Positions 33,534 through 56,911 of a stretch of DNA of 64,000 bases are shown piece by piece. A program made the translations under genes and the position numbers. The DNA is taken from positions 682,001 to 746,000 of the forward strand of contig NZ_JAXMIH010000006.1 of assembly GCF_034366625.1 (NCBI RefSeq), given 5' to 3'. Source of the DNA: Prosthecobacter sp. GTDB lineage: Bacteria > Verrucomicrobiota > Verrucomicrobiia > Verrucomicrobiales > Verrucomicrobiaceae. The notes beneath the pieces are model-generated. The model worked only from the letters and a program-made list of their open reading frames with translations, did not search any database and was not told the DNA's origin. The stretch's first letter is position 1; each line of letters begins with the position of its first letter.

Positions 33534-33562
33534 ATTATGAGGATTTCTCGTTTCCGAGTCAA
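33534..33562 (-). promoter_or_regulatory. Sigma-70-type promoter of the PEP-CTERM gene
   Basis: On the minus strand TTGACT (33562-33557) and CATAAT (33539-33534) are separated by 17 bases, each one base off consensus. The expected start site is near 33527, about 24 bases before the ATG at 33503. A direct repeat of AGTCAATT (33557-33572) duplicates the -35 region. Confidence 0.7.
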
Positions 33563-33606
33563 TTAGTCAATTGGCTAGCAGACCGGTCGGGCAGGATTCA
33601 GGCGTT

Positions 33607-36600
33607 TCACGGGAGGCTGTTCGCCGTCACCCGCGCTTGATAGAATTTTTGGGTTCCGGAGGGATTTTGATCGGTAAAAGTCAGGCTGCCGCCCGTTCCA
33701 GGGCGGTTTTTGGCCTCCGTTTCGTTTTCCAGCGTCCAGGAAACGAGGTCGGGGCTGGAGTAGACATGATAAAATCGTCCCAACACCGTGGGGAAGGCCA
33801 GGATGACCGTGTTTTCAGATTGAGTGGCGCTGGTGATGGCGAAGGTGGACGTGCGATCCAGCGGGCTGGTGCCGGCGGTGGACTCGTTTTCGTTGCTCAT
33901 GCCATCACCATCGTGATCCCCCGTGGGTGAGAGGAGCAAAACGGGTGTGGTCTGGCTGGAAGGGTTGGGGTTGCCGCTGTCGGATGAACTTGGAGCAGAA
34001 CTCACCTCCGCGCTGCTGACGGCCGAGAGCGTGGCGTAGTAGGTGGTGCCGGTGGTGCCGGTGAAGGTGTAGCTGGTGGTGCTTCCGGTTACGCTGGCGT
34101 TGTTCACGACGTTGCTCCCGCCAGGCGTATTGCCGATGCTGATGCGCCACTCGGTAATGTTGTCATGCGCACTGGCATTGCTGGTCCAGGTGAAGGCGCC
34201 CTGCGTGCCGATCTGATAATAGGTGGCGTTTGGTGCGCTCGCGGGCGGCGGTGTGACATCGACGACCTTCAAATACTGCGCCAGTTCGCCGTCATTGGTG
34301 ATGGCATTGCTTGTGCCGCCGTCGAGGCTGACGAAGACCCCGTTGCTGTAAATATCGGCTCCGCTGCGAGGAGAAGCCCAGATGTTCGCGCCTGCATTGC
34401 TGCTGGCGAGATTGCGGATGTTGTACTGCCGTGCGGCCGAGTTTTGCAGGCCCAGCAGCGACCAGAGTGGATCGCCGACACCCCCACACAGATCAAAAGT
34501 GTCAGACGCCACACCATGCGCCGCTCCGTGGACGAACAAGTTCGCAAAACAGATCACCACGTCTTTGAACGCGGGGGAAGCACCGGCCTGCTCGTATTTG
34601 GCGATGGCAAAGACGTTGTTGTTTGGCGTCGTGCCATTCGGCCGTTTGTCGAGGTAGTATTGGTTGATGCTCTTGATTGCCGGACTGTTGAGCCGCGCCC
34701 AGTTCACCCGTCCATACCACTGCGCCATGCCGGTGTTGTTCGGCGGCGGCAGCGTCCAAAACTGCGCGCGATTCCACTTTTTGAAGTGCGGAATGCGTTT
34801 GCCGAAGTTCAGCTCGTGATCCGTCTCAAAGCCGTCGTAGTGAAAGGTGCCGCCGTTGGTGTTGTAGTTTTGAATGCCCTGCTCCTGGCCGTAAAAAGTC
34901 ATCGGCAGGCCCGGAACGGCCGCCAGGGCGGCATAACGCGTGGCATTCAGCCAGGCGTCGTTATCAGGCAGGACTTCATCGTGGCCGGTGATGTTCAGCA
35001 GGATGGCTCCGGTGCGGTAGTTGCTGCGGCGGGACTCCAGGGCGCTCTGGATCACCCCTTCCTCATTCACATGGCTGGCGGTGAAGTTGAAAACGAGGCT
35101 TTCATTGAGGATGTCGAATACGCGGTTGCTGCGGTAGCCCGGCTGTTCGCCATCCAGCGTCTCCGCCATGAAAACAAAATTCCACTTTGCGCTGCGGGTG
35201 CGGTTGATGATGTATTCCCACAGTGGATTCGGCAGCCCTTGGCCAAAGTCGCAGCGCAGCGAGTCGATGCCCTTGTTGTCGGCGGCAAGGCGTGCGGCGT
35301 AGCTGCCAGTGGTGGAATTGGCAAGCGAGTGTCCCGTCTGCTGCAGCCAGTAGATCGGGTAGTGGCCGAGATAGCGCCATAGTTTGATCACCTCGGGACT
35401 CAGGCTGTTCCAGTCCATGACATCGTCCTCATTTTTATGCGGCTCGGAACCGGCGGTGTAGGTGTCGAAGCGCCACTGCGCGGAGTAGCGGCCGTAGTAA
35501 AGCTCGGTGACATCACTCCACTTGCCAAAGTCGTTGCGATCGGGCGCGACGGCCTTGTCCTTGTCGCTCAAACTCGTGAAGTAGGTTGCCGGCTGGCCGT
35601 AATCGCCCGTGCGCGAGTACCAGTTCACTGGAATCGCATTCGTCGTGCTGCCGGTGAAACCGAGATCGACTCCGCCTTGCCCGTAAACCGCATCCCAGGC
35701 TGTGTGATTCGCCACAAAGTCGAGCATGACATTGATCGTTCCCACGCTGCCACCGTAGTCGTCCGCCTTCGTCACGAACGACTGAAACTCACTCATCGCC
35801 GAGGCCTCCGTGCCCGCAGTGCCGAGGTAGGGGCTCACGGCGAAGAAATTTTTCGTCGCATACGGACTTCCCGGCGAATACGGCGAGGACGTGGCCGGAT
35901 CGTTCTCCACACCGAGACCGCCCGTCGGATGGATCGGCTGGAACCACAGGCAGTTCGCTTGAATCGTATTGAAGTAATCGAGGTTCACCGGATCGATGCC
36001 GTCGGAGTCGCCATCCGCTGCACCGAGCATGTCGAGGAAAGTGCTGCGTCCGGCCTCACTCGCGGCGGTGGCTTCGATCGTGAGCGGATTGACCTCATAG
36101 AGCGTCATTTCGAGTGTCTTCTTCGGACTGACGACCACGGCATGATCACGGTCGCCATAGTAGAACCACGGGCCGGTGGGCGCGAAGCGGTAGCGCACGG
36201 TGGCACGATACGCGCCGGTCTTCGTCACCGGAATCGCGGCATTCCAGGTGCTGCCGCTGCTGTTCGTCATCGCATGGGCCTTGTAGTAGTGTGTTTCATT
36301 CTGCCCGCAGAGATCACGCGGCGGCGACAGGATGCCATCCGGCACGCCATCGCTGTTGTTGTCCTGCTCGGCCTTGTCACGGCGGTTCAAATTCGTCACC
36401 ACTTCCACTTCCGTCGGCGGAGTTCCGGCGTTGAAGGTGGCACTGACATTCAGCGGGAAGGTCTCGCCTGCGATTTCGTCGATGAAAAACTTCGTCGTCT
36501 GATACGGCCCGCTGGTGTTGTTCACGCTGAAGTCTGTCATGCGGTTCACGCCGCTGATGGTGTAGTTGGCACCGGCATTGTTGTTCCAGGCAAGCGACAG

Positions 36601-37275
36601 CGCATCCGTGGCGAACCCGCTGTGAAACTTGTCCGGCGTCGCGGTGCTGGTGAGCACATACCAGGCGTAGTTTTTCCCGTCCTTGATGTCCGGGATCGTC
36701 GCTGTGGCCGTGTTGCCCGCCACGGTGGCCTGAATGACCTGCGAGTAGGTCCAGCCCGAGTCCGTGTAGCGCACATAGACTTTCTCTTCGACCGCAGGCG
36801 TGCCGCTGAGGTTGATGGTGATCAATCCGCTCGTTGCATTCCGTGACACGCCGGTGATGGCGACCGGCGCGGCGCTCAGTTCCATCACGCTGATGAAGGT
36901 ATTCGCCAAACCGGGGTCTTTGACCGTGAAAACGTACCGTTTGCCATTCGTCACACCGCCGGAGAGCTTCGCCGCGCTGTCGCCGACCGGCTGGTAATAC
37001 AGGATGGCGAGTTCATTCTTCGGGAAGATCAGATTGCCGCCGTAATCCTGATCCCAGTTGTTCCCAGTGACCATTTTGAAGTTGTAGTCGCTGATGGCGG
37101 TGCCGGCGGTCCATTGAAAGCGGAACCATTCCGTGCTGCCATCCGGCCCGGTAAATTTCGTCGAATCAGTCGTGCCGAGATCCCATCCTTGCCCGTCACC
37201 CGGAAAATCCACCTCGTTGGCATTCCAGGCGAACGCGGAGGTGGCAAACAAGAGAACTGGAAGAATTCTCTTCAT
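33607..37275 (-). CDS. Secreted GH13 alpha-amylase-family glycoside hydrolase
   Basis: A 1222-residue protein with a signal peptide (residues 1-16, ending FAWNA). N-terminal beta domains (to ~395) precede a GH13 barrel whose four conserved regions are visible: I DFVANH (519-524), II GIDSLRCDFGQG with nucleophile D676, III FMAETLDG with acid/base E705, and IV NITGHDE with D766. An FN3 domain (~1010-1095), a calcium-binding-like DHDGDGMSNENE motif and the shared C-terminal module follow. It should hydrolyse alpha-1,4-glucans outside the cytoplasm. It is the last gene of a three-gene operon; its ATG overlaps the stop of the 2784-residue gene (ATGA, 37272-37275). Confidence 0.9.
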   Translation of the reverse strand: MKRILPVLLFATSAFAWNANEVDFPGDGQGWDLGTTDSTKFTGPDGSTEWFRFQWTAGTAISDYNFKMVTGNNWDQDYGGNLIFPKNELAILYYQPVGDSAAKLSGGVTNGKRYVFTVKDPGLANTFISVMELSAAPVAITGVSRNATSGLITINLSGTPAVEEKVYVRYTDSGWTYSQVIQATVAGNTATATIPDIKDGKNYAWYVLTSTATPDKFHSGFATDALSLAWNNNAGANYTISGVNRMTDFSVNNTSGPYQTTKFFIDEIAGETFPLNVSATFNAGTPPTEVEVVTNLNRRDKAEQDNNSDGVPDGILSPPRDLCGQNETHYYKAHAMTNSSGSTWNAAIPVTKTGAYRATVRYRFAPTGPWFYYGDRDHAVVVSPKKTLEMTLYEVNPLTIEATAASEAGRSTFLDMLGAADGDSDGIDPVNLDYFNTIQANCLWFQPIHPTGGLGVENDPATSSPYSPGSPYATKNFFAVSPYLGTAGTEASAMSEFQSFVTKADDYGGSVGTINVMLDFVANHTAWDAVYGQGGVDLGFTGSTTNAIPVNWYSRTGDYGQPATYFTSLSDKDKAVAPDRNDFGKWSDVTELYYGRYSAQWRFDTYTAGSEPHKNEDDVMDWNSLSPEVIKLWRYLGHYPIYWLQQTGHSLANSTTGSYAARLAADNKGIDSLRCDFGQGLPNPLWEYIINRTRSAKWNFVFMAETLDGEQPGYRSNRVFDILNESLVFNFTASHVNEEGVIQSALESRRSNYRTGAILLNITGHDEVLPDNDAWLNATRYAALAAVPGLPMTFYGQEQGIQNYNTNGGTFHYDGFETDHELNFGKRIPHFKKWNRAQFWTLPPPNNTGMAQWYGRVNWARLNSPAIKSINQYYLDKRPNGTTPNNNVFAIAKYEQAGASPAFKDVVICFANLFVHGAAHGVASDTFDLCGGVGDPLWSLLGLQNSAARQYNIRNLASSNAGANIWASPRSGADIYSNGVFVSLDGGTSNAITNDGELAQYLKVVDVTPPPASAPNATYYQIGTQGAFTWTSNASAHDNITEWRISIGNTPGGSNVVNNASVTGSTTSYTFTGTTGTTYYATLSAVSSAEVSSAPSSSDSGNPNPSSQTTPVLLLSPTGDHDGDGMSNENESTAGTSPLDRTSTFAITSATQSENTVILAFPTVLGRFYHVYSSPDLVSWTLENETEAKNRPGTGGSLTFTDQNPSGTQKFYQARVTANSLP

Positions 37276-40200
37276 GGGTTCACAAGACGCACTTCGACGC
37301 GGTAGAAGCGGGAGGCGGGAGGCGTGGGGTCGGTGATCGTGATGGGTGAGCCGGTGCCGAGGAGGTCGGCGGTCAGCGGGTTCCAGGACGTGAGGTTGTC
37401 GGAATAGAACACGCGGTAGAGGCGGTCGGGAATAGTGGTGAAGGTCAGTTCGAAGCCGCCGACGACTTTGGCGGGCACGGGCTGGTAGCGGTCTCCGGCG
37501 CGGGGATTGTTACCGAGGATGAACTCCTGCAGGTTGGTGTAGGCGTCGCCGTCGGGATTGCCGCTGTCGCCGTTGATACCGCCGGAGTCGCCGGCATTGA
37601 GGTTGTTGGCGGTTTCCCAGGCATCGGGGAGGGCGTCGCCATCGGTGGACTCGCTGAGCGTGGGGCCGGTTTCGAGACCGAACTCGAACACGTCGCCGTC
37701 GGTGATGGTGAGCTCGATCTGCTGCGTCTGCGCCTGATTGCGCATGTTGAGCGTGTCGAAGGTGATGACGGGATCGTCATCAATGGCATCGCCGTTGTAG
37801 GTGGCGCTTGGCCAACTGGGGATGCTGGTGCGGATGTAGGCGCGCACGACGGCATCGGGCGCGTTGTTGGTGAGGCTGACGATGCCACCGAGGCTGGAGA
37901 CGCTGCCGAGATAGGTCTGGCCGCTGGTGAGCAGATTGGCAAGATGCGGGCTGAGGCCGTGGCGTTGATACAAGGTGGTCACGCCGCCGGTGAGAGCGAA
38001 TACGGCACGCAGACTGTTGCCACGCGCCGCGAGCGTGATGGTTTTGGCGATCTTGCCGTCGCTGCTGGTGAAGGTGAAGCCGTTTGTCGCGGTGGTCACG
38101 CTGTAGAGATTGTTGACGTAAGCGAGTGCGTCAGGCACGCCGGTGGCGAACCAGTCCTTGAAGCCGCTGGTGCGGTAGCTGCCGGGTTGCGTGCCGCTGA
38201 CATTCACGTTGCCTTCCTCCTCGGTTTCAAAGCCGGCGTAGCTGTGCGGATTGCCCACGACCTGCATCACCTTGCCATTGACGAGATCGCGCACGAACGC
38301 GCAGGTCATGCGGCCGCCGATGCGCTCGAACATGGCAAACACGCGGTCGTTAAAGAGCAGATACTCGTCCTCGCCATCGAGATCGGCATCCTCGGCGGCG
38401 GTGCTGACGCTGTTCGCGAGTGTGGCCGCGCTGGCGGCCCACTGGCTGACACGCTGATACACCTTGGCCCAGCGGAACTGGCTCTGCGCGGCCTTGGAGA
38501 AGCCGGCGAGGTTGTTGAAGCTGGTATCGGGATAGATGTAGTCGCCGGTGCTGAACTTGGCGAGGTTGGCGCTGGGTTGATCGTGAAATGCCGTGAGCCA
38601 CATGGCGCTGTGGAAGGCACCGCGGGCCAGACGGCCAAACGACGGATCGCTGATGCCGAGCGTGGTGGCGGCGGTCCAGGCCGTGTCCACGAGGCCGGAC
38701 ACGCCGACCTGGCCGAAGGCTGCGGGCAGCGGCACGCCGGGCCGGATGTTGAAAATCTTGCCGTTCAGGCTCTCCTCGCGCCCCGCCTGGCCGAAGTACC
38801 AGTTGTCATAGTTTTCCTGCGTGGCGAAGTGAACGAAGTCCTTCGACACGATGGGCAGCGTGGGCGCGTTGCGCTCGACGAAGGGCCACACATCCGGCGT
38901 GCCGTTGCGATTCGAGTCCACCTCACCGGCGGCGATGGCCTCCGGCGTGGTGATTTGAATCCACGGCCGGCTGGCCATCCACGCGATGTTCACGTCGTAG
39001 CCGTCCGCGCTCGTCTTGGTGGTGAAATCGCTCCAATCGCTGCCGAGGATGACGACCTGATCCTGCGTGGCGCTGCGCGCCTTGCGGTTCAACAGCTCGC
39101 GCAGGGAGGTGTTGAGGCCGCCATCGGTGTTCTGGAAGCGGAACTGGCTGGGCTGGTCGCTGATGGCGAAAACCTTGACGCCGTGGATGCGGTTGAGGCG
39201 GTAGCCATCGTTGCCTAGAGCGCTGCTGCGGCCAAACCACTTCTCGAAATGCCGCGCCTGCTCGGCGTAGCTGAAGCTGAAGCCAGAGGCGGCGAAATCG
39301 CTGTAGGTTTCGTCTCGCAGCACTTGTTCCGGTGGATACACCGTGACGGGCGTGGCGTGGTAAAGATCTGCCATCGGCGTGTTGGCATCGGTGAAATTTG
39401 TTTGCGTGTAACTGAGCGGGAAGTAGGAGGCGATGTGATCGCCATAGGTGGTGCCAACGAAATGCACAACGCCGCCGCCGACGAGCGCGTCGAGACGCGC
39501 ATTGAAAGCAGGGCCATCACGCCACGGTTTGCTCACGGCGGGATCGACCTTGGCCCACTGAATGGCACTGCCGAGCGTCGGCGTGAGATGCAGGGCCATG
39601 GGGACGCCGTAGGCCTCATGCACATCGAGCGGCCGATACCACCCTGCCCCGGCACCGTTGTTGATGAGCGCCTGAACTTCGCTGCCGGCGAGCAGCGGAC
39701 GTGATTCGTGAATGAGGCTGGCGACTTTGACACGCTTGAAGCGATCATTGCTGCCACCGGGGCCAAACCAGGCCTTCAACACGCTGCCCGCACCGGCGAG
39801 GGTGCTTTGATCGCGCCAGTAGTCGCTGGCAATGTTGTCATCGTAGATGCTGTCACGGATGTCACCGCGCCCGGCGATGTCGCTGCCGTCTTTGGTGGTA
39901 TAGACCTGGAAGTTGAGCGTGGAGGCATCACCGAGCCAGCCGGCATCCATGAGAGCCTGGCGGCTGATGCTGAACTCGACGGCGTCGAGCTTGCTGTTGA
40001 ACCAGGATTTTTTGAAGCCGTTCGCATCCGCCTGCGTGCGGCGCACGACGCCGAAGTCGGTGGGGTTCTCGTCGAAGGCGGTCGAATGGCCCGACAACGG
40101 CGTGTCCACATACACCGCACCGCTGTCCGTGGCGTAACAGGCCACCACGGCCTCCCATTTCATGTTGGTACGTGTGTCGATGCCATCCGGCAGCGCGGAC

Positions 40201-43200
40201 TCGCCGTTGGCAGGGCTGTTGAAGTCGATCACGACGTAGATGTCGAGATTGGCATCCTCCGCGAAGGCGGCGAGATCCTGCACATCGACGCGGAAGTAGA
40301 AGTTGCCGTCACCACCGGCTCCGGTGCTGCCGCCATCGTGCGCGTAGAAGGCCACGAGGTCGCGGCTGCTGTCAAAGCCGTCGTAAGCGCGATACAAGTC
40401 GCTGCCCTGGTTGTTGGTGCCGTCGCCGTTGTATTCGTCGAGGGCGATGAGATCGCCGATGGCCCAGTCGGTGAATTCGCGGTTGTTGCTCACACCACCG
40501 GCCACCACCGGCGTCTGCGGGCCGATGACGATCTGTCCCGGCGGCGGTGGCGTCACGATGTTGTTCTCGCGCGGACTCGTGCCGTTGGTGATCTCCTGCA
40601 AATTGGAGAAGCCATCGAGATCGGGATCGCCATTGGGGCCGTTCACGGCGAGCGCCGTGACGCCGCGAAAGCTCAGCGTGCCGTTGTCGAGCGGATCGAG
40701 GTTGTAGCGGGCTTCCCAGCCGTCCGTGAGGCCGTCGGCATCGGTGTCGGCCTTGAGCGGATCGCTTTCGCTCCATTCTTCGGGTGATTCCCAGATGCGG
40801 TTGGTGTTGGTGTCGCCAGCGATGCTGCCGTTGAAGTCCTTGTCCTCGCCGTTGCCATCCACCGCGCCATCGCCGTCGGTGTCGGCGTTGTTGGGATCGG
40901 TTTCGGTCCAGATTTCGCCGGGATTGCGGACGCCATCAGGCCAGGTGCGTGCCAGCGAAGGATTGGCGTTCGTGGCGAGCGATTCACCATCGCCCTGCAA
41001 CCAGCCATCGCGGTTTGCATCTTCGACACCGTCTTTGATGCCGTCATTGTCGGTGTCAGGATCATCGGGACTGGTGACGCTGCCGCGCAGTTGTTTCGCC
41101 CGATCACCGCCTTCGCTCAGCGTGTTGACGCCGGGCACGTTGTTGAGGTTGTCGATGGTGTTGTAGAACGGCGGATCTAGGTCGCCGATGAAGTTTAAGA
41201 TGCCGTCGCCATTCGTGTCCACGCCGGGAATGGTGCCGAAGTCGTATTTGAGATCGAGATCGGCATCGGTCCAGGTTTCGCTGGCTTCACCCGCATCATG
41301 CACGCCGTTGTTGTTCGTGTCCGTCCAGTCGAAGAGACCGTTTCCGGCTCCGATGACGGTGGGGGAACCGTAACCAGTGTCAGAAAAGGTCTCACCGATG
41401 ATGGTCGGGCCGCGCCAGCCGACTTCGAGCGCATCGGGCAGGCCGTCGCCATCGGAGTCGGGGTTGTGGGGATCACTTTTGCCGAAGGCGTGGTAGATGT
41501 GGATTTCGCCATTGGTCCAGGTCTCAGGATTCGGCTTCGGCGAGACCAGATAACCATTCGGCAGCGGCGTGGCGGTGGCTTCATCGCCATCGAGCAGGCC
41601 GTCGTCATCGTCATCGGGATCGGTCGCGCTGGCGGGTGTCACTTGCCGAAAAAAAACGCGCGCGTTGCGGGTATCGTGATTTTCGCCGCCGGGAGCGAAG
41701 ACGGTGGCGGTGAAGCGGAACTCGCCCTGCGTCATGTTTTGCCAGGTGAAGTCCCAGAACTTGGTGTTGCCCTCCGTGGTGACCACCGACTCACCGGCGA
41801 TGTCCATGGGGCCGTTGTTGATGGTGAGCGTGACGCTGGTGGCATCCGCTGCGGTGGCGACGCGGATGGTGTAGCGGCGCTGATCAGCCGTGGGCGCGGC
41901 GACATCCGGCAGGATGATGTCAAACGGCTTACCATCGCTGTCGAGATCCGGCGGCGTGTCGATGCTGATGCGCGGGACCTGCGACGGCATGAAGCGCACC
42001 AGGCGTGTGGTGGAGATGTCGGGCGTGGGTGTCGGACGGTCGTGCGTGACTTCGATCTTGTGCAGGTAGTCGGGCTGATCGTTGTAGAGATTCGGCAGCG
42101 TGAAGGCGAGGGCGTGGCAGTCGTCCGTTTCGTTGAGGTTGATGGTGTAAGCATCACGCGAATAGGCGGTGAGCACGCCGCCGTCGTCATTGGAACCAAT
42201 GCGGATGGTGAAGCGGTCGCGGAGCTGCGTGGTGGTGAGGCCGTCGGCCAGCGACTTGGTGAAATAGACTTTCATCACATAACCGTCGCCCACGAGGTCA
42301 CCATGATTCTGCGGGTAGGCGATGAACATGCGGATGTCCGGCCCGGCGGTGGTCACGGTGCGCTGCAACGTGGTGAAATGACCGGCGACGTCGCTGAGCG
42401 CGAAGTCCTTGTAGGCGGCGCTGCTGAGTTCACGCAGGCGCACCTGGATCGTGGCGCTGCCGGTGGCGGGAATGTTGGTGTAGTTGAGCCGCCATTCCTT
42501 TTGGTAGACCGGATTGAGCGCCTGGAAGCTGAGCGAGGGCGTGACTTCGGTGGCCTTGACCCAGGAGGTGGCCAGCGTGGCATCCCAGGTGCCGTCTTCG
42601 TCCAAATCGACAAAGGCTTCCCCGGCATCGCGTACGCCATCACGGTCGCTGTCGGTGAACGGTTCATAGCCGCCACCGTTGCCGCTCAAAGAACGCGTGA
42701 TGCCGTCGTCGTTGGTCGCATCGCCGTCGGTGATGTTGTACCAGACTTCGGTGACGCTGGAGTCGGTGCGGACGACGCCACCGTACTCGCTGCCGCCCAC
42801 CGTGTCGCCGTTGGTCTCTGGAAAACGGATTTCACCGAGCGGGCGCTGCGCATCGAAGTAGAACGACTGCGTGAAGGTGTTGTAGATGCTGGCCTGGCCG
42901 CCGCGATTGAGGAAAGCCCGCGCACGGATGACGTGCATGCCTTCGCTCAGGCCGGTCTGCTCCGCGCCATAGTCCGCATGCGGGCGGATCACGGTGGTGG
43001 TGAGATCACGCACGCTGGTTTCAAAGGTGGTCAGCATCTTCTGCTTCCGCGTGACGGCGTCCGCATTGCCGGGCCACCAGGAGGGAGCGGCGTCTTTGTA
43101 GATGCCGATTTTGTATTTGGATGTGGTGTTGAAATCGACCGGCAAAGGCACGGCGCTCCACCAGTCGCTCGCGCCGCCGTCGTCGTTGTGCCGGTAAATC

Positions 43201-48600: not shown

Positions 48601-51600
48601 CCACTTCGGTGAAGCCATCGAAGAACTCGACCTTGGTGATCGTCGCTCCGCCGTTCGTCGTGAAGGCAGTGGCGGTGAATTCAACGGTGCTGTTGAGGTA
48701 GTTCGTCGATTGATGCAGCGGCGCGGTCATGGCAACGCTCACCGCACCCTGCACGCCAGTGATGTCGATGTAGCAGAGCTTCGTGTTGGTTCCGCCCGCG
48801 CCTTGCGCGAGTGACAGTGTGCCATCGCTGATGGTGACAGTGCTGGTGGCTTCGATGTAGCGGCTGGTGGTGCTCGGCGTGCCGGTGAGGATCACATTGC
48901 CTTCGGCGGTGACGACATGGTTGCTGTCAGTCGTGGTCGGATCACCGGCGACGAGATGGACGCTGTAAGTGCCGTTGGGCAGCTCGATCTGCCACGAACG
49001 CGGCGCGGGCGCATCCGTGTGCTTCATGTGATTGAGTGTGTCGTAGCGCTGATCGGGAGAGGCGGCGTTGTTGCGGTCGCGGGCGAAGGCGGTGTTATCG
49101 ACATCCCAGCCGTAGCTGAAGCCGTTGTCGCGCAGGCCGTAAATCGAGCCGGTGTCGGCGATGTAACCTTCCGGCACCGGTGCGGAGGCGGTTTGGAAGT
49201 TCACATGCAATTCGAGGGGCAGGCCGTTGGCGAGCACGCTGACGTTGTCGAACAAGGCGGTGGCGGTCTGCGCATTGTTGTGCGCTGAAAGGGCGAGGCC
49301 GATGTAGATGCTCTGATTCATCGGCAGCACGATGGAACCGACCTGCTGCCACGCGCCATTGCTCGCGGCGATGAAGCCGGTGATCACATCACCCTGACGA
49401 CGGATGCGCACGAAGTAGGGCGCGAACTCGTTCGGCCCGTCCGTGTGCGCGGTCGCGCCATCGGTGGCGGTGCGGTATTGCAACTGCGAACCCTGGCCGC
49501 TGGTGAGCAGCATGAGCGCGTTTTTGGCACCGGCACCGAGGCTGTCGCGAATCATCACACCTGCCTTCGTGTAAGGATCGGTCGGCGTGATGGATTGCAC
49601 ACGCGCGATGATCTCGCCGTCGCCGTTGAGCGTTTGATACGCGAAGTGGAAGGCGTCGGCGTTGTTCCAGATGTCATCACCGCTGCCGGACATGATGAAG
49701 GTGTCGTTCAGCGTCGCGTAAGTGGCATCACCGGCGAAGCCAACACTGCCGACATCGGCGTGAAGCCACGGCGACGGCAGCGGATCGGCCGGCGGCTGCG
49801 AAACTTCGGCGATCCACTGCTCCAGCATGGCGATGGCGTCTTGATCGACGACATTTTTGGCCAGCGGCGGCATTTTGAAGTGCTCGGTGGCGGTGGCCAT
49901 GCGCAGGTACATGATCGAACGCTCCACGCTCTGCGGCGCGATGACCTTGGCGTTGTTCACGCCGAGATTTTGCTGCACGATGCCGTTCACGATGCTGGCG
50001 GAGCCGAGCGGCGTTTCGTAGCGCGCATCCCAGAACGCATGCACGCCGCCGGGGCGATGGCAGTGCGAGCAGTTGGAGTCGAGGTAGCCGCGCATGCGCT
50101 GCTCGGCCGAAGCGGTGTTGTCGGAGAGCGCGGCGAACTTGTCGTAGTTCGGGATGTCGCCTTCCACGAGCGGCGTGGTGAAGTAACCGGCGTGGTTCAT
50201 GGCCCGGAGCTGGTTGTCCGTGATGCCGCTGGCGAGGTAGTGGTAGTTGCTGTTGGATTGAGGGGTGTTCATGCCCAGCACGCCGCCTGAAACCTGCGTG
50301 TGGCAGGCGAGACAGTCCTGGCGGCCCGGGAAATACCACGGCTGCGTGCGGTTGATGTTGAAGTGGAAGCGCGCGGTCGAGGTGGCGGCGTTGCTGTGAC
50401 CGGTGACGGCCATGCCGAAGTAAACCGTGCCCGGCAGTGCCAGCGTGTGCGTGGCGTAGAGCGTCCAGTTCTTGCCGTCTTTCGCATGCCAGGCGGTGAA
50501 GACATCGCCCTGACGCTTCAGGCGCAGCCACGCATTCGGGTAGCGCACTTGCGGCTGCGGTGTGGCGGGATAGATCGCCGCAGAGCCACCGCCGGTCGTG
50601 TCACGATACTGGAACTCGTAGCCACCGGTGTTGTTGTTGCGCGCTTCATTGGTGGGGAACATCAGCGCCATGACATTGCGTGAGTTCGCGGCGAGGGATT
50701 CGCGCACCATGAGGCCGGCCTTGGTATAAAGATCAACGCGGTCGAGCGATTCCATGCGCGTGGCGATGTCGAAGTCGCCGGTCTTTTGCGAATGCACGAA
50801 GCGAAACTGGTCGCTGACGCCAAAGATGTCCGCGCCGCCACCGGAGACAGCGTAACCGCCATTGAACGGCGTGGTACTGCCCGCCACGCCGGGACTGCCG
50901 ATGTCCGTGCTGCTCAGCGTGCCGAGATCGACGCTGCCGATGATCGGAATGTCCTCCGTGATGCCGCTGGTGATCAAATCCGCGTCGGAATTGTCCGGCC
51001 GCCACTTGTAGGTCATGCCATAGACGTAACCGGCGTTGTCACGCACGAGGACGCGTGTTTCGAGGCGTTGTGCGACGGCAGGGTCGTTGTCATTGGTCGG
51101 CAGATCGAAGTGTTTGATGAACACCGAGCCTTCCGGGAAGCTCCACTCGCCTGCGGGCGTGAAATTGATCGTCTGCCCGGTGGGAATGCCGAACCAGCGG
51201 TACTTGTAAGCGCGGTCGCTCCACAACGGATTCACCGTTTTGAACTCGTTGTAGCCGGTGACGGGCTGGAGCGGGTTGTTGTTGCCGAAACTCGCTGGCG
51301 AGAGCAAGCCGGTCGCGGAAAGCGTCTGCGGCAGCGACGGCGGCGGTGCGCCGGTGCGCTGGAGTTTGTAGATGCGGCCGCTGTTCACGTCGCTGGACAT
51401 CTGCGTCATGTACAGCTCGCCATCCGCATCCACGCCGAAGCTGGAGACGCCGACGTAGTTGCCGCCGGAGACCGGGCCGACGCCGTTCGGAAACGTGGTC
51501 AAACCGACCTTGCCGGGCGGCATGGTGCTTTCATCGAGATACCAGATCGAGCCGCTGACGTTGTCGGCGAAGATATACTTGCCGCCGAGGTCGCTGGCGA

Positions 51601-52738
51601 ACTCGCTGCCGCGATACACATTGCCGCCGATGACCGCACCGCCTTCCGCGTGCGAGTAGTGGATGATGGGCCGCTTGTTGGTGCCGATGTAGGGCTGCGT
51701 GAGATCGCCCTGCAGGCCTTCGATCTTGTCCCACTGGAAATTCAGCGCGGATTCGTTCGGCTCAATGACATCAATCTCCTCCCAGTTGCCCAAACCCACG
51801 TCACCGATGAAGATGCGCTTGGAGACGGGGTCGATCGTCATGCGGTGCGGACTGCGCAGTCCGATGCAGAAGAATTCTTCGAGCGCATTGGCTTGCCCGA
51901 CGAACGGGTTGTCGAGCGGGATGTAGTAGTTCTGCGTCACCGTGCCCGCCGGCTGCGGTGTGCGGGTGATCGGCTTGCTGATGGCACCGCCGCGCTGATC
52001 CACATCAATGCGCAGCACGCCGCTGAACAGACCGCGGTCGATGCGCTGCGTGTTCAGCGTCGATTGCGCGTCGTCGCCATTCGTGAGGTAGAGGAAACCG
52101 TTGTCCGGGTGGAAAAACAGGCCGCTGCCGTTGTGCCACACACTGCCGGCCACCTGGTCGATGAGGATCGTTTCGCTCGCTGGATCAATCGTGCCATCCA
52201 CATTCACCGTGAAGCGCGCGAGGCGGTCGCGGCAGGGTTTGAAGGTGTTCGGGCGTGTCGTGGGACTGCCGGTGACGGTGCCCGGCGTGACCCAGGTGTA
52301 GTAAAGGAAGACGTAGCGGTTGTTCGAGGGCTCCGAGCCGAAGTTCGGATGAAACGCGATGTTCATCAGCCCGGAATCGTCCCAGCCCTGGCATTGATTC
52401 GAGATGTCGAGCATCAGCACCTTCTGCGCGTTGGTGGCCGCCGCATCCTTCGGGAACGAATAGATCTTCCCCTCACGCTCCCACGCGACGAGGCGGCGTT
52501 GATTGGACGCTTGCCCCGGCAGTTCGCAAACGCCGAGGGCGTTGTAGAGCGTCACATTTGGAAACGCCGGCGTGACGGACCAGTTACCGGAGAAGGTCGG
52601 CGCATTGGTGGGCAGCGCGCCGTTGTTGAACGCCGTGAACGACGGACGCGAAGGGATGCCGTATTGAGCAAAGGAGGTGCCAGTCAGAAGAATGGCGGGC
52701 ACGAGCAGCCGGAGCCATTTCAAGAAATACAAAATCAC
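45623..52738 (-). CDS. Giant secreted PQQ-type sugar dehydrogenase / cytochrome c / PA14 protein
   Basis: A 2371-residue protein, signal peptide ~1-24. Residues ~50-480 are a glucose/sorbosone-dehydrogenase-type propeller (WDDSGLMNIAFHPNF, HNGSGLFFHPDNGFLYLTNGD, GLRSPHRMTIDP). At ~600-790 and ~1000-1180 are two similar beta domains (TKAGLMVRESL, TKAGVMIRDSL). Between them lies a cytochrome c-like part with two heme sites, CLACH (~809) and CSHCH (~892). A malectin-like domain, a bacterial Ig domain and three PA14 domains (~1430, ~1698, ~1973) follow, then the shared C-terminal module. It should oxidise sugars and pass electrons to c heme. It is the first gene of the operon and overlaps the next by ATGA. 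Confidence 0.85.
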   Translation of the reverse strand: MILYFLKWLRLLVPAILLTGTSFAQYGIPSRPSFTAFNNGALPTNAPTFSGNWSVTPAFPNVTLYNALGVCELPGQASNQRRLVAWEREGKIYSFPKDAAATNAQKVLMLDISNQCQGWDDSGLMNIAFHPNFGSEPSNNRYVFLYYTWVTPGTVTGSPTTRPNTFKPCRDRLARFTVNVDGTIDPASETILIDQVAGSVWHNGSGLFFHPDNGFLYLTNGDDAQSTLNTQRIDRGLFSGVLRIDVDQRGGAISKPITRTPQPAGTVTQNYYIPLDNPFVGQANALEEFFCIGLRSPHRMTIDPVSKRIFIGDVGLGNWEEIDVIEPNESALNFQWDKIEGLQGDLTQPYIGTNKRPIIHYSHAEGGAVIGGNVYRGSEFASDLGGKYIFADNVSGSIWYLDESTMPPGKVGLTTFPNGVGPVSGGNYVGVSSFGVDADGELYMTQMSSDVNSGRIYKLQRTGAPPPSLPQTLSATGLLSPASFGNNNPLQPVTGYNEFKTVNPLWSDRAYKYRWFGIPTGQTINFTPAGEWSFPEGSVFIKHFDLPTNDNDPAVAQRLETRVLVRDNAGYVYGMTYKWRPDNSDADLITSGITEDIPIIGSVDLGTLSSTDIGSPGVAGSTTPFNGGYAVSGGGADIFGVSDQFRFVHSQKTGDFDIATRMESLDRVDLYTKAGLMVRESLAANSRNVMALMFPTNEARNNNTGGYEFQYRDTTGGGSAAIYPATPQPQVRYPNAWLRLKRQGDVFTAWHAKDGKNWTLYATHTLALPGTVYFGMAVTGHSNAATSTARFHFNINRTQPWYFPGRQDCLACHTQVSGGVLGMNTPQSNSNYHYLASGITDNQLRAMNHAGYFTTPLVEGDIPNYDKFAALSDNTASAEQRMRGYLDSNCSHCHRPGGVHAFWDARYETPLGSASIVNGIVQQNLGVNNAKVIAPQSVERSIMYLRMATATEHFKMPPLAKNVVDQDAIAMLEQWIAEVSQPPADPLPSPWLHADVGSVGFAGDATYATLNDTFIMSGSGDDIWNNADAFHFAYQTLNGDGEIIARVQSITPTDPYTKAGVMIRDSLGAGAKNALMLLTSGQGSQLQYRTATDGATAHTDGPNEFAPYFVRIRRQGDVITGFIAASNGAWQQVGSIVLPMNQSIYIGLALSAHNNAQTATALFDNVSVLANGLPLELHVNFQTASAPVPEGYIADTGSIYGLRDNGFSYGWDVDNTAFARDRNNAASPDQRYDTLNHMKHTDAPAPRSWQIELPNGTYSVHLVAGDPTTTDSNHVVTAEGNVILTGTPSTTSRYIEATSTVTISDGTLSLAQGAGGTNTKLCYIDITGVQGAVSVAMTAPLHQSTNYLNSTVEFTATAFTTNGGATITKVEFFDGFTEVGEDFTEPFAFTWNSVPTGVHQVMAKATDSTGAVGFSSFNQITVSPDGPLGLSAEYWPNLAMSGTPVTRNDANIQFDWAGGAPMTGIPNDLFSARWRGRIKPQYSEVYTFKTATDDGTRLWINGQLVIDRWVNQGANPAYTGTITLTAGQVYDIEMNYFEGFGAAVARLSWSSASQPEELVPGDRLFNPTAGANHRPRQPDIIIPANDGELVDPITMVMQTAAFQDVDAAQTHAATDWEIWSTTGTIERVWSALNQTGGALLYRQLPGGTFEGVLTGQTQLANDTTYQLRVRHRDSSADAATEWSPQAVRSFTTTPPDDPRGVLGEYYPNNATFRLTGTPLSRTDTNIDFNYGGGEPFSGVGADNFCVRWRARVKPQFTETYTFTSETDDGARLWVNGQLLIDKWQFQGPTRHSGTITLIAGQYYDLEMQYFEGAFGAMAKLMWSSASQAEQVVPALRLYAIAPGANHRPRVPALITPSTNGAPQSSSAVPMLGGAFEDEDAGHTHAGTDWEIWTDEDSSVRAWSALNRSGAQLTNVTLSAGTFENSHSGRTTLINDTKYRIRIRHKDSSADANSEWSAWSDWKYFVASPMDAAHGLAAEYYSNTQTFQGTTPFTRTDYDINFSWGGGSPDGAISTDNFCARWRGRVKPEFTETYTFKTDSDDGTRVFVNGQLIIDNFGAFTGQTTGTITLNAGQFYDIEVHFLELGGDAVAKLLWSSASRVEQLIPASRLYAPLLGSNRRPRTPDITLPTGAGLVSPATLALQTGAFVDLDSAQTHAATDWEIWTTTGTIERVWSALNRTGAQRLDLTLADGAFENSHAARTTLLGSTAYQLRARHQDSSGTTTSERSAPTHHAFATSIVPYDTWFTSQFTPAEQANPALSGETADFDGDGLPNLLEYALGTAPKGTNTSPTLLNQVTPTQMILNYQTYTGALDVQFIVESSTDLQGNTWSTTGITTAVDGAANGQLQPMRATITLTPGEPRRFVRVRVVRP
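45990..48450 (-). repeat. Three PA14-plus-spacer repeats within the sugar dehydrogenase gene
   Basis: Three tandem units of roughly 800-830 bases each encode a PA14 domain (starting with (A/G)EY(W/Y)PN or AEYYSN and containing DDGTRLWINGQL, DDGARLWVNGQL or DDGTRVFVNGQL) plus a ~120-residue spacer with TDWEIW and ALNxTGxxL. The spacers are also alike (RVWSALN occurs in all but one, which has RAWSALN). Boundaries are approximate. Confidence 0.8.
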
Positions 52739-52898
52739 GGTCCGAAATACGGTTGGGGTTTAGGGCGGTCAGGAGGCTCCCAAAAAACTGCCTTCGAAGC
52801 AAGCTTTTACCTGGGTGGAGGCGGGGCGAGATCATGCCCTCCCGCAGAACGGAAGTCATTTAGTCAAATGAACATTTCGCAGCCCGGCCGGGACAGGT
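52739..52898. promoter_or_regulatory. Divergent control region between the glucan operon and the two-component system
   Basis: A 160-base non-coding gap is the only space between the start of the three-gene exoenzyme operon (minus) and the kinase-regulator pair (plus). Promoters for both must lie here. I could not identify convincing -35/-10 pairs or a regulator repeat. Its position makes it the expected target of the adjacent LuxR-type regulator. Confidence 0.5.
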
Positions 52899-54962
52899 AT
52901 GATGGAGCGCATGTTCAACGGGCTGAGACTCTCTCTGGCGCTGGCGTTTGCAGGCCTGCCCTTCGTCATGGCCGCGGAGCCGCTGGCAACCGTGGGGGAG
53001 GTGCGCAGGCTGGCGCCGGAAACGGCGGAGCGCAGACCACCCGTGCGCGTGGAAGCAGTGGTGACCTGCTACCACAAGGACTGGGGCGTGCTCTTCGTAC
53101 ACGACGGTAAAGATGGCATCTGCGTCGGCATCGCCGAGCAGGACCGCCCGGCGCAGCCGTATGCACCCGGCATGCGGCTGAGTATTGAGGGAGTCGCCGG
53201 GCCGGGTGAATTCCTGCCGGTGATCCTGCCGTCACGGATCGACGTGAGCGGCAGCGGTGCGTTGCCGGAGTTTGAAAAGGTGACTGCGGAGAGGCTTTTC
53301 CTGCCCGGGCTGGACTGCCATCCGGTGGAGGTGGCGGCGGTCGTAAAGGGCACTTGGTTTGGCGATCAAAGCCTGGTGGTGGAGCTGCAGATCCAGGGCT
53401 GGTCGGTCAAAGCGGTGCTGCCACAGCATCAACCGCAGTCGCAACTGCCCTGGCAGCTCGTGGAACGCCGGGTGCGGGTGCGCGGCATCGCGGGCACGCA
53501 TTTCAACGACCAGCGGCAGATGTCCGGGCGCCTGCTGTTCGTGCAGGGGCTCGAATCCTTTGTGCTCGATGAAGCGGCAGAGTCGGTGGCGGAAGCACCG
53601 CTGATGCCGGTGGACGGGCTGTTGCGCGTGGATTCGCCGCTGCGCCAGCGGGTGCGGGTGCGAGGCGTCGTCACGCATGGCGTGGCCGGACGCGGCCTGT
53701 ACCTGCGAGGCGAAGGCGGCGGTTTGTTTGTGCAGACGGCGCAGCCGGTCTCCATTCAGACCGGGGATGAAGTGGAGGCGGAGGGCTATGCCGCCGTCAC
53801 GGCATTTCGACCGAGCCTGAGTGCGATCAATGTGACAAAGACCGGCACGGCGGCGGCCTTGCCCGAACCGGTGATTTTTCATGCGGCGAACACCCGCCAT
53901 AGCCGCGAGCAGTGTGAACTGGTGACGCTGGAGGCGAACTACTTGGAAACGATGCATGGCCGTGAAGGCATCAGCCTGATGTGCAGTGCGGACGGGCAGG
54001 TGTTTGAAGCGCTGCTGGCGGCGACAGACCCGCTGGCGGAGGCACTGCTGCCCGGCATGAAACTGCGACTCACGGGCATTTGTGAATTCAGCTCCACACG
54101 CCCGCTGGTCATTCCCCGCAACGCCACCGGCTTCCGCATCCAGCTTCGTTCGCCGGCGGATGTGGTGGTTCTTGCCCGGCCGCCGTGGTGGGATGGGCGC
54201 CGTGCGTTGTGGGCGCTCGGGATTCTGGCCGTCGTGGCGTTGGTGATCGGTGCCTGGGCGGTGGTGTTGCAGATGCTGGTGCGCAAGCAATCCTCCGTGA
54301 TCCGGCAGCAGGCCCAGCAGCAGGCCACGCTGGAGGAGCGCCAGCGCATCGCCCGTGATCTGCATGACACGCTGGAGCAGGAACTCGTGGGCGTGACGAT
54401 GCTGCTGGACAGCACCGCGATGAAGCTCAACGGCAGCCATCCGCAGGCCAGCGAACCGCTCGGGCTCGCCCGCCGGCTGCTGCGGCGTGTGCGTGAGGAA
54501 TCACGCAGCACGATTCGTGAAATGCGCAGCGTGACGCTGGAGCAGCGCGGCTTGCACGCCGCCCTCGATGAACTGCTGCGCCCGCTGGCGACGGTGAGCG
54601 GCGCTGCCTTCAACGTCGAAGTCGTCGGCCAGCCGGTCCGGCTTTCGGGAACGCTGGAAACGCATCTTCTCCGCCTGGCCCAGGAGGCCGTGGCGAACGC
54701 CGCACATCATGCGGCGGCCCAAAAAATCGACCTCCGGCTCGAATACGCCGACGGGCAGGTGCATTTGGCGGTGCGGGATGATGGCAGGGGGTTTGAACCG
54801 TCCAGCGCCGCGGCGGCGGCCGGGCACTTCGGCCTCAGCGGCATGCGGGAACGTGCGGAAAAAATCGCCGGGCAGTTGCGCATCGTCAGCCAGCCCGGCG
54901 CAGGCACCACCGTTTCAGTTCAGGCCCCCGTCGTGGCCTTCCAGTCCTCCTCCCCGGCATGA
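52899..54962 (+). CDS. NarL-type sensor histidine kinase with repeated beta-domain sensor
   Basis: A 687-residue protein. A signal/anchor (GLRLSLALAFAGLPFVMA) is followed by a ~400-residue exported part. This part seems to hold about four similar OB-like beta modules, each with VRVxxVVT...G.xLxVxDGxxGIxV-type strands (VEAVVTCYHKDWGVLFVHDG, VRGVVTHGVAGRGLYLRG). One TM helix lies at ~436-458, then the HisKA_3 dimer domain with H489 (RIARDLHDTLEQEL) and a HATPase with RDDGRGFEP and GHFGLSGMRERA. It phosphorylates the LuxR-type regulator, whose gene overlaps it by 4 bases. Starts at 52902 or 52911 are also possible. Confidence 0.9.
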   Translation: MMERMFNGLRLSLALAFAGLPFVMAAEPLATVGEVRRLAPETAERRPPVRVEAVVTCYHKDWGVLFVHDGKDGICVGIAEQDRPAQPYAPGMRLSIEGVAGPGEFLPVILPSRIDVSGSGALPEFEKVTAERLFLPGLDCHPVEVAAVVKGTWFGDQSLVVELQIQGWSVKAVLPQHQPQSQLPWQLVERRVRVRGIAGTHFNDQRQMSGRLLFVQGLESFVLDEAAESVAEAPLMPVDGLLRVDSPLRQRVRVRGVVTHGVAGRGLYLRGEGGGLFVQTAQPVSIQTGDEVEAEGYAAVTAFRPSLSAINVTKTGTAAALPEPVIFHAANTRHSREQCELVTLEANYLETMHGREGISLMCSADGQVFEALLAATDPLAEALLPGMKLRLTGICEFSSTRPLVIPRNATGFRIQLRSPADVVVLARPPWWDGRRALWALGILAVVALVIGAWAVVLQMLVRKQSSVIRQQAQQQATLEERQRIARDLHDTLEQELVGVTMLLDSTAMKLNGSHPQASEPLGLARRLLRRVREESRSTIREMRSVTLEQRGLHAALDELLRPLATVSGAAFNVEVVGQPVRLSGTLETHLLRLAQEAVANAAHHAAAQKIDLRLEYADGQVHLAVRDDGRGFEPSSAAAAAGHFGLSGMRERAEKIAGQLRIVSQPGAGTTVSVQAPVVAFQSSSPA

Positions 54963-55594
54963 GCGCAAGCCCTCCCATCCGTGTTCTCATTGTGGACGAC
55001 CATTTCGCCACCCGGCTCGGTCTGGCGGTGCCGATCAACAGCGAAGCAGGCATGACCGTCGTCGCCGAGGCCAGCACCGGGGCGCGAGCCATCGAACTCT
55101 ACCGCGAGCACCGCCCGGATGTGCTGCTCATGGACTACCGGCTGCCCGATCAGACCGGGGTGACGACGCTGGAGGCCCTGCGTGTCGAGTTTCCGCACAT
55201 CCGGGCCTTGATCCTGTCCGTGTTCGACGGTGAGGAGGACATTTACCGCGCCGTGCAGGCCGGGGCCAGAGGCTACCTCACCAAAGCCGCCGAATGCGAG
55301 GAGGTGCTGCGCGCCATCCGCTGCATCGCCGCTGGAGAAACGTATTTCCCCGCCGAGATCGCCGCCAAACTGCATGCGCGTGAGCAGCGCAAGCCGCTGA
55401 CGCCGCGTGAGCTGGAAATCCTCAAACTGCTCGTCAAAGGCCACTCCACCAAGGAGATCGTCGATCTGCTCCACATGAGCATGGGCACCATCCGCCTGCA
55501 CATCAGCCTCATTTTGGAGAAGCTGGAGGCCTTCGACCGCACCCGCGCCGTCGCCATCGCCATCGAGCGCGGCATCGTCCACGTTGGGGAATAG
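54959..55594 (+). CDS. LuxR/NarL-family response regulator
   Basis: A protein of 211 residues. The receiver domain shows the acidic pair D13-D14 (LIVDDHF), phospho-acceptor D59 (LLMDYRLPDQTG) and the conserved Lys in YLTKAA. The C-terminal LuxR helix-turn-helix is LTPRELEILKLLVKGHSTKEIV followed by GTIRLHISLILEKL, in two continuous helices that contact DNA. The start codon overlaps the kinase stop (ATGA, 54959-54962). The pair lies back-to-back with the alpha-glucan operon, so activation of that operon is the likely job, by inference from position. Confidence 0.93.
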   Translation: MSASPPIRVLIVDDHFATRLGLAVPINSEAGMTVVAEASTGARAIELYREHRPDVLLMDYRLPDQTGVTTLEALRVEFPHIRALILSVFDGEEDIYRAVQAGARGYLTKAAECEEVLRAIRCIAAGETYFPAEIAAKLHAREQRKPLTPRELEILKLLVKGHSTKEIVDLLHMSMGTIRLHISLILEKLEAFDRTRAVAIAIERGIVHVGE

Positions 55595-55989
55595 GTCGAT
55601 GCTGGATGCGAGGGGTGGGTCAGAGGATGCCCCCGTCAACACAGCGCCGATGCTGCCACAGCACGCCGCGTTGCCAAGTCGGAAACCAGGCTGCTTGCGT
55701 TCTGCTCGATTTGAGAACATGAGGAGCGTGACATCATCAGATCAGTCGCATGCCTACCAAAGTTGTTTCCGAAGCCGGTCAGCACACGCGTACGCCGGTG
55801 TCTCGGAAGAGTGATCAGGGACAAGTGCTCCGAGGCGGGCAAGGCATTGGCATGTTGAGTTAGAGTAGGTTTTCTTTTCTCCGTCAACCGCATGGTTCGT
55901 GCGGCGAGCGAAGGCAGTCTCCAGTGTGGAAACGCGGACTGCCAGGCCTTGCCTTGTGGCTTTGCCAAGGAGGGTTCGGGACCGAGATG

Positions 55990-56055
55990 CTGGCCTGGTT
56001 TCATTTTCTCAAATGGGTTGGCACGGCCAATGCCATTGGTTTGGCTTGTACGTCT
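55990..56055. repeat. Repeat copy A, downstream of the Rhs remnant
   Basis: About 65 bases starting CTGGCCTGGTTTCA that match copy B (56981-57038) at roughly two thirds of positions by eye, with shared blocks TGGCACG, CA, ATTGG and TTGGCTTG. Copy A contains the palindrome CCAATGCCATTGG. It begins directly past the end of the Rhs-homologous part (56062) on the minus strand. Confidence 0.6.
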
Positions 56056-56061
56056 CATTCT

Positions 56062-56844: not shown

Positions 56845-56911
56845 GCCACGGGCCATGACGTGGTAATAAGCCCCGGCGGATTGAATGCGGATGCTGCGTG
56901 GCATGCCGCGC

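Follow-up and report, generated by a model that had tools for sequence, protein, structure and literature searches.

A 64-kb stretch of the genome of Prosthecobacter sp. (contig NZ_JAXMIH010000006.1, positions 682,001 to 746,000), referred to below as the window, carries on its minus strand a giant operon of ~19 kb, in which three genes follow one another with overlapping frames. A sensor kinase and a response regulator are encoded divergently from this operon. The genome that contains the window (G000) comprises 6.6 Mb, and the family comparison covered 68 genomes. The features of the locus are as follows.

45623-52738, minus strand: gene 1 (P0001), 2371 amino acids, apparently exported protein that combines a GSDH-type and a diheme cytochrome c domain with three PA14 domains and the common C-terminal domain
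37272-45626, minus strand: gene 2 (P0002), 2784 amino acids, giant with GH13 and GH57-like domains
33607-37275, minus strand: gene 3 (P0003), 1222 amino acids, second exported GH13 enzyme
52739-52898, no strand: divergent control gap, 160 bp
52899-54962, plus strand: sensor histidine kinase, HisKA_3 and HATPase_c (Pfam)
54959-55594, plus strand: NarL/LuxR-type response regulator (Pfam)
52853-52882, plus strand: conserved motif of ~30 bp in the gap, a candidate site for the regulator; core 52861-52874
33556-33585, minus strand: second, weaker motif copy (core 33564-33577) in the interval that separates gene 3 from the PEP-CTERM gene
32889-33503, minus strand: small PEP-CTERM protein (P0008), probable additional regulon member, whose homologue in genome G002 lies beside gene 3 with an exact motif upstream

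The sequence-only reading of this DNA described three overlapping giant genes and a divergent kinase–regulator pair 160 bp away, and its coordinates, gene lengths and ATGA overlaps all check. On the minus strand ATGA spans both junctions, at 45623-45626 between genes 1 and 2 and at 37272-37275 between genes 2 and 3; a four-base overlap likewise joins the frames of kinase and regulator. The N-termini of genes 1-3 resemble signal peptides by eye, and the open reading frames of genes 2 and 3 are not chance products since long relatives exist in other genomes. What goes beyond the earlier reading is the GH57-like domain, the motif, the downstream PEP-CTERM gene, and the finding that conservation does not extend to the three-gene arrangement as a unit.

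Gene 2 is divided as follows, all parts being on the minus strand.

43947-45539: GH13 α-amylase domain, residues ~30-560, with D274, E337 and D399 (profile and alignment)
41637-43949: tandem Ig-like β-sandwich domains, residues 560-1330 (structure model of residues 545-1345)
40557-41624: stretch rich in Asp, of calcium (TSP3-like) type, residues 1335-1690 (seen by eye; profile matches weak and below cut-off)
39750-40541: module folded like CBM74 and like the glucodextranase C-terminal part, residues 1696-1959 (fold search)
37665-39740: GH57-like domain (barrel, helices, β C-domain), residues 1963-2654, with the conserved E2100 (profile, alignment, model)

The Pfam Alpha-amylase profile (cut-off 22) matches the N-terminus of gene 2 with 41.9 bits and gene 3 with 31.8 bits; this N-terminal GH13 domain is all that Pfam detects in gene 2. 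In an alignment of 63 rows including the window, the catalytic residues D274 (48/48 aligned rows), E337 (50/50) and D399 (50/50) are invariant where aligned, the remaining 15, 13 and 13 rows having gaps at these positions. Their catalytic roles were assigned from what we take to be the GH13 motif positions. The domain resembles GH13 α-amylases of the PRK09441 / 1mwo type in sequence match and in its full catalytic set, but it is one domain of a multi-domain giant, and its best score is 120 bits against an equivalog cut-off of 382. Modelling and fold searching of the middle of gene 2 (residues 545-1345) returned generic Ig-like matches only, which were weak (best Z 9.5).

The AlphaFold model of residues 1690-2665, computed with 56 sequences, reached a pLDDT of 87.5 and a pTM of 0.88. 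Its first part (residues 1696-1959) matches the C-terminal part of glucodextranase 1ug9 (Z 15.1, root-mean-square deviation (rmsd) 2.9) and the CBM74 of Ruminococcus bromii Sas6, 7uwv (Z 14.8, 212 residues, rmsd 3.7), in what amounts to a tie. The module may share the CBM74 fold; it is 13% identical to 7uwv, and glucan binding by it is a prediction from the modelled fold.

The remainder of the model suggests that the C-terminal half of gene 2 has the architecture of GH57, with a predicted (β/α)7 barrel followed by helices and a β C-domain, so that two α-glucan enzyme folds stand ~1400 residues apart in one protein. Conservation in blocks of 60 residues is 56-81% across residues 1981-2660 among nine family orthologues including that of the window. 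The GH57 profile PF03065 matches all nine at E values up to 1 (best 3.2e-9); the window protein misses the cut-off (15.7 versus 21.2 bits), and the domain is therefore named GH57-like. The model aligns with Thermococcus litoralis 4-α-glucanotransferase 1k1w with Z 21.8 over 502 residues, the rmsd of 9.1 applying to the whole chain, and with the Aquifex GH57 amylopullulanase with Z 19 over 344 residues and an rmsd of 3.5. Barrel, helical part and mutarotase-like β C-domain are the same as in 1k1w, as is a conserved Glu in a YPPE/R-type motif. In contrast to 1k1w, to which it is 13% identical, the gene 2 domain sits behind a GH13 domain in an apparently exported protein, and its putative proton donor is variable. 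From the alignment we infer that E2100, present in 61/61 aligned rows, is the nucleophile Glu of GH57 conserved sequence region 3 (CSR-3) on strand 4. D2197, at the end of a predicted strand, would correspond to the proton donor Asp of CSR-4 on strand 7; Asp is found there in 25/59 aligned rows. A sequence route to GH57 structures was tried and rejected, as the A1 profile searched against the PDB gave no GH57 chain and three CutA matches (E 0.83-1.6); the proton-donor position was therefore assigned from the predicted strand and by eye.

It is possible, if doubtful, that the GH57-like domain is a non-catalytic α-glucan-binding relic, which would leave gene 2 as a giant GH13 amylase that carries binding modules. 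The variability of the putative proton-donor position is what such a relic would display, and passages of PMC6037648 describe groups of GH57 'like' proteins without catalytic residues; a binding role is therefore conceivable for the gene 2 domain. Against this stand the invariance of E2100, the retention of the barrel and C-domain fold, the occurrence of the domain in every relative whose contig reaches it, and the Asp that the window protein itself keeps at position 2197. In a few close relatives the motifs look eroded: both His 1973 and Asp 2197 are replaced in G026 (L094), and Asp 2197 is replaced in loci L084 and L092. To judge from these residues, the three domains appear as if they were losing activity.

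Genomes of 84,980 species were scanned with the C-terminal half of gene 2, the seeds being two peptide patterns within the CBM74-like module, and the scan thus covers proteins having that module. It gave 62 loci with 38-72% identity to this half, in entries titled Verrucomicrobiaceae, Akkermansiaceae, Chthoniobacterales/Spartobacteria, Opitutae, Kiritimatiellae and Lentisphaerae, among others. GH13 and GH57-like parts occur together in 50 of the 62 relatives, in a single open frame in 45; the contigs of the remaining 12 are cut inside gene 2, ten starting and two ending there. A gene 3 homologue (34-85% identity) follows gene 2 within ~4 kb on the same strand in 21 of the 42 phylum loci with room for it, lies elsewhere in the locus in three, and was not found in 18. 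The acidic residues D519, D676, E705 and D766 of gene 3 are kept in 25/25 aligned rows (26 rows, one with a gap), and by sequence gene 3 is a second GH13 enzyme. The α-glucan breakdown proposed from the sequence alone is thereby supported: GH13 domains are present in genes 2 and 3 with catalytic residues kept in all aligned relatives, and gene 2 adds the GH57-like domain and the CBM74-like fold.

Among the family genomes, orthologues were counted at E values up to 1e-30 for gene 2 and up to 1e-20 for gene 3, and at an identity of at least 55% for the kinase. Gene 2 is present in 13/68 genomes and gene 3 also in 13/68, as fragments only in G053 and with 44% and 43% identity in G003 and G004; in G037, gene 2 is present and gene 3 was not found, the contig ending there. 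Genes 2 and 3 lie within ~1 kb of each other in eight of the 13 (G000, G009, G019, G024, G032, G040, G041, G050), are 8.4 kb apart in G026, and are not together in G002, G003 and G004, where G004 has them on different contigs. Some frames are interrupted, by a stop in both genes of G024 and in gene 2 of G050. A gene of the GSDH–cytochrome kind stands directly upstream of gene 2 on the same strand in 7/13 genomes. It is of the gene 1 type in G000 and G002 and of another type in G026, G037, G040, G041 and G050, and the GSDH parts of the two types share ~31-34% identity. The G040 contig carries no more than the final codons of its upstream gene, which was identified by eye from G041. The gene 1 type of G002 overlaps gene 2 by four bases, and no gene 3 lies beside it. 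Such a gene is not directly upstream in G003, G009, G019, G024 and G032, a count that leaves out G004 and treats two GSDH genes as unlinked, one lying downstream of gene 3 and convergent with it in G024, the other ~13 kb upstream of gene 2 in G019. Among the 13 gene-2 genomes, the complete three-gene operon was seen in the window alone.

The kinase is found in 12 of the 13 gene-2 genomes; the 55 others lack it, their best matches reaching 45% identity or less. The lone gene-2 genome without it, G037, is 87% complete. At these thresholds gene 2 and the kinase are both absent from G053, with its gene 3 fragments, and from G054, with a gene 3 scrap. The kinase adjoins the operon in four genomes (G000, G024, G026, G050) and lies among other genes in eight. 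The best account is that genes 2 and 3 with the two-component pair form the conserved core and that the dehydrogenase–cytochrome gene is a variable, recurrent recruit. In G040, G041, G019 and G032, where the pair is not beside the glucan operon, it is followed by another giant gene; that of G040 (L068, 8809-17595) contains PKD and Calx-beta domains, and its matches to metalloproteases are weak and below cut-off.

Gene 1 contains the following parts, again on the minus strand.

51710-52498: GSDH (pyrroloquinoline quinone (PQQ) dehydrogenase-type) domain, residues 81-343 (PF07995, 57.7 bits against a cut-off of 25)
50942-51331: diheme cytochrome, first part, residues 470-599 (TIGR03806 profile positions 2-123)
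50402-50800: DUF1349 nested in the cytochrome domain, residues 647-779 (Pfam; halves of TIGR03806 on both sides)
49805-50347: diheme cytochrome, second part, residues 798-978 (profile positions 132-313), with CxxCH at 809 and 890

Pfam finds GSDH above its cut-off, DUF1349 and three PA14 domains. The match to TIGR03806, the SO2930-type diheme cytochrome c known beside GSDH, amounts to 190.1 bits and is under the cut-off of 313.3; both CxxCH motifs are kept. Unlike that family, the gene 1 domain is split by the nested DUF1349, and it is continuous in the other upstream GSDH genes examined (G041, G026). By sequence, the nearest solved relative of gene 1 is the hedgehog-interacting protein (HHIP), with E 2.2e-11, the sugar dehydrogenases following at E 5e-5 and weaker. 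The best PqqE match in the genome scores 83.5 bits against a cut-off of 381, in a search without positive control, as none of 14 control genomes passes either. A literature search for sorbosone dehydrogenase and cytochrome c in 'Verrucomicrobi' found no paper. Gene 1 is likely an oxidoreductase. Its supposed part in the oxidation of released sugar, as the sequence-only reading had it, is unproven because HHIP is nearest by sequence and no PqqE exceeds its cut-off.

These same two results favour a further tentative explanation, which we take seriously without preferring it, namely that gene 1 has no metabolic link to the amylases and merely joined a regulated promoter, the dehydrogenase-like domain being an HHIP-like binding module. 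It gains from the position of the gene 1 orthologues outside G000 and G002, which lie away from gene 2 where seen. It has to be set against the two GSDH–cytochrome types that stand directly upstream of gene 2 in several genomes, the two haem motifs that gene 1 retains, and the distant gene 1 orthologues of G003 and G004, which carry the motif of the control gap with one mismatch. Elsewhere in G000 a region of contig C8 (226001-260000; L077, L078) holds a gene 1 paralogue (51%) and another GSDH-type giant (32% to gene 1), together with two related kinase–regulator pairs (31% and 44% to the operon kinase), which suggests that the pairing of such kinases with GSDH–cytochrome giants recurs.

In the divergent pair HisKA_3, HATPase_c, Response_reg and GerE all exceed their Pfam cut-offs, which identifies a NarL/LuxR two-component system; the N-terminal part of the kinase is large and, by eye, probably extracytoplasmic. 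Comparison of upstream regions side by side yielded a motif near YTAGNYANATGAAYA. As an exact 14-mer pattern it has one match in the 6.6-Mb genome, at 52861 in the gap, and 20 matches in the 68 genomes compared to 13 for a reversed control. Ten of the 20 lie at the system in eight gene-2 genomes (G000, G002, G003, G004, G009, G024, G026, G050) and are all the matches that these genomes have; eight of the ten helped to draw the pattern, the independent ones being the G050 site and the G002 site between gene 3 and the PEP-CTERM gene. The other matches are one in the gene-2 genome G019, located elsewhere (C15), and one in each of nine genomes without gene 2, G054 included, and the exact pattern is absent from four of the 13 gene-2 genomes. 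Up to two mismatches admit further copies before the unlinked gene 1 orthologues of G003 and G004, before gene 2 of G019 and at 33564 in the window, and weak copies at the kinase of G040 and G041 and at the GSDH gene of G041.

A sequence model (R1) made from 12 non-window sites was run on the 68 genomes with stricter filters. It gave 14 matches under E 0.02, all at this system, of which 12 are the training sites and the other two are the window gap and G054:C87. In G000 the gap (E 0.013) is the sole match at E up to 10, and the copy at 33556 was not reported; the next match in the 68 genomes (E 0.07, G019:C18) lies away from the system. Treating G054:C87 as background was rejected, since next to it are a gene 3 scrap of 176 bp, with 88% identity to G024, and, judged by eye, the tail of a PEP-CTERM gene. 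Locus L178 (G054:C87, 4417-4950) appears to be a decayed operon of motif, gene 3 scrap and PEP-CTERM tail in a genome that is 74% complete, and the gene after it also follows the PEP-CTERM gene of the operon in G040/G041.

A matrix was trained on seven sites that are kinase-side or divergent. It gave 22.5-33.1 bits to six unlinked sites of gene 1, gene 2 or PEP-CTERM genes, first located by the pattern, compared to a maximum of 21.3 in a null of 3175 windows that overlap by half and from which 19 windows with known sites were removed. The null has two distinct maxima, at 16.8 and 21.3 bits. With this matrix the site at 33556 scored 11.9 bits, a value matched or beaten by 12 of the 3175 null windows. 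In the 64-kb window a matrix made without window sites ranked the gap first (27.2 bits) and the gap between gene 3 and the PEP-CTERM gene second (18.9 bits). The matrix of all 13 sites pointed to six other places at 14.6-18.4 bits (L016, L022, L029, L070, L179, L096), none of which was accepted as a promoter of the system; L016 lies inside gene 3 of G019 and L022 inside gene 2 of G009.

From co-occurrence and position we infer that the regulator may act at this motif, which suggests that the set is switched on together with the sensor genes. Of the control by the divergent regulator that was proposed earlier, the link is thus supported, both by the distribution of the kinase and by the recurrence of the gap motif before unlinked members. 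That the motif is real and bound by another factor, such as an alternative sigma factor or a separate transcription factor, with the kinase pair as one more target, is considered improbable. It would account for the kinases of G002, G009 and G019, which have no strong motif although their genomes do have one at a promoter of gene 1 or gene 2, and for the position of the window motif core, with just 24 bp between its end and the start codon of the kinase. It fits less well with the kinase, the only regulator checked for co-occurrence, occurring with gene 2 in 12 of 13 genomes and having no match of 55% identity or more in the other genomes, including G053 and G054 with their decayed loci.

Gene architecture, domain content, catalytic-residue conservation, co-occurrence and the common cis motif are the computed basis on which the locus is probably to be read as an exported α-glucan (starch/glycogen) utilisation operon under a dedicated two-component system. 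The kinase would sense a glucan-derived or envelope signal and phosphorylate the regulator, which would bind the gap motif and activate its own genes, the exoenzyme operon and the small downstream PEP-CTERM gene. Gene 2 would act outside the cytoplasm, its CBM74-like module holding the polymer while the GH13 domain would cut α-1,4 bonds and the GH57-like domain would rearrange or trim chains in the manner of a 4-α-glucanotransferase. Gene 3, the second GH13 enzyme, would act on the products. Gene 1 may be an accessory oxidoreductase that joined the operon in some lineages, oxidising a probable sugar-type substrate and passing electrons to its own haems.

Several points weigh against this reading. 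The window protein misses the PF03065 cut-off, and the GH57-like domain may be non-catalytic in many relatives because Asp 2197 is found in 25/59 aligned rows. The phylum scan was seeded on the CBM74-like module, and most matches of both the exact pattern and R1 had gone into their making. Outside the window, 11 promoter regions of unlinked genes (gene 1, gene 2, GSDH or PEP-CTERM) were tested, and five showed no strong motif: those of gene 2 in G003 and G032, of the upstream GSDH gene in G041, and of the gene 1 orthologues in G019 and G037. A strong motif was likewise missing from all five kinase promoters tested (G002, G009, G019 and G032, with G041 weak). Finally, the kinase pair may control more than the glucan enzymes, since another giant gene follows it in four genomes.

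A more far-reaching version of the utilisation operon, which we regard as unlikely, is a surface 'starch-to-electrons' machine. One secreted chain would carry a GH13 hydrolase and an active GH57-type glucanotransferase working in series on bound α-glucan; a co-regulated extracellular dehydrogenase–cytochrome, recruited at least twice from different sources, would oxidise the released ends, and a motif-defined regulon would unite the scattered genes.

The sequence-only reading also held that there is no SusC/SusD pair. This stands for SusC, with no match over the curated cut-off anywhere in the genome (best 54.5 bits against 368, in a search that passes the cut-off in 1/14 control genomes); SusD was not searched. 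SusCD-type loci of Bacteroidota presumably share the clustered, regulated and exported α-glucan enzymes, but the window genome lacks a SusC above the cut-off. The new elements are the dual-enzyme protein and the motif, each domain alone being of a known kind. An ordinary starch locus with nothing specially new is an improbable description: GH13 enzymes, two-component control and exported giants are presumably each common, and parts of PMC5615132 list GH13 and GH57 among the over-represented families of some freshwater verrucomicrobial genomes, but no GH13 and GH57 in a single chain was noticed in the portions of the literature searched, a claim that reaches no further than these.

GH13 and GH57 are independent solutions to α-glucan chemistry, and in relatives from several verrucomicrobial lineages the two folds share a single, apparently exported chain. 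Gene 2, where a starch-module-like fold separates the two, is a test case for combining hydrolysis and chain rearrangement outside the cell without SusC. The motif defines a concrete, falsifiable regulon and makes the regulation hypothesis testable; to our knowledge, few binding sites are known in this phylum.

A C-terminal domain of ~100 residues is common to genes 1-3 and to P0007, a cyclophilin-containing giant. A search of the genome located its copies in the window at the following positions.

45626-46000, minus strand: common C-terminal domain
37275-37661, minus strand: common C-terminal domain
33610-33960, minus strand: common C-terminal domain
32320-32664, plus strand: common C-terminal domain

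The domain follows the pattern DxDGDGLxNLxEYALGTxP ... YxVESSxDLxxW ... RRFxRVxV and has no Pfam or NCBIfam match over cut-off. In G000 the search gave 36 copies (E up to 0.001), the longest of the open frames that contain them having 11,247 codons; of the 32 matches outside the window, 20 end within 12 residues of the stop. The domain is a candidate for sorting or anchoring the exported giants of Verrucomicrobiota. Beyond the regulator gene, the minus strand of the window encodes a large RHS-repeat protein (57361-63999) and a shorter open reading frame (55636-56904) that has RHS repeats after its start and looks like a broken RHS copy. By eye, the first residues of the shorter frame resemble what we take to be a REP-associated transposase.

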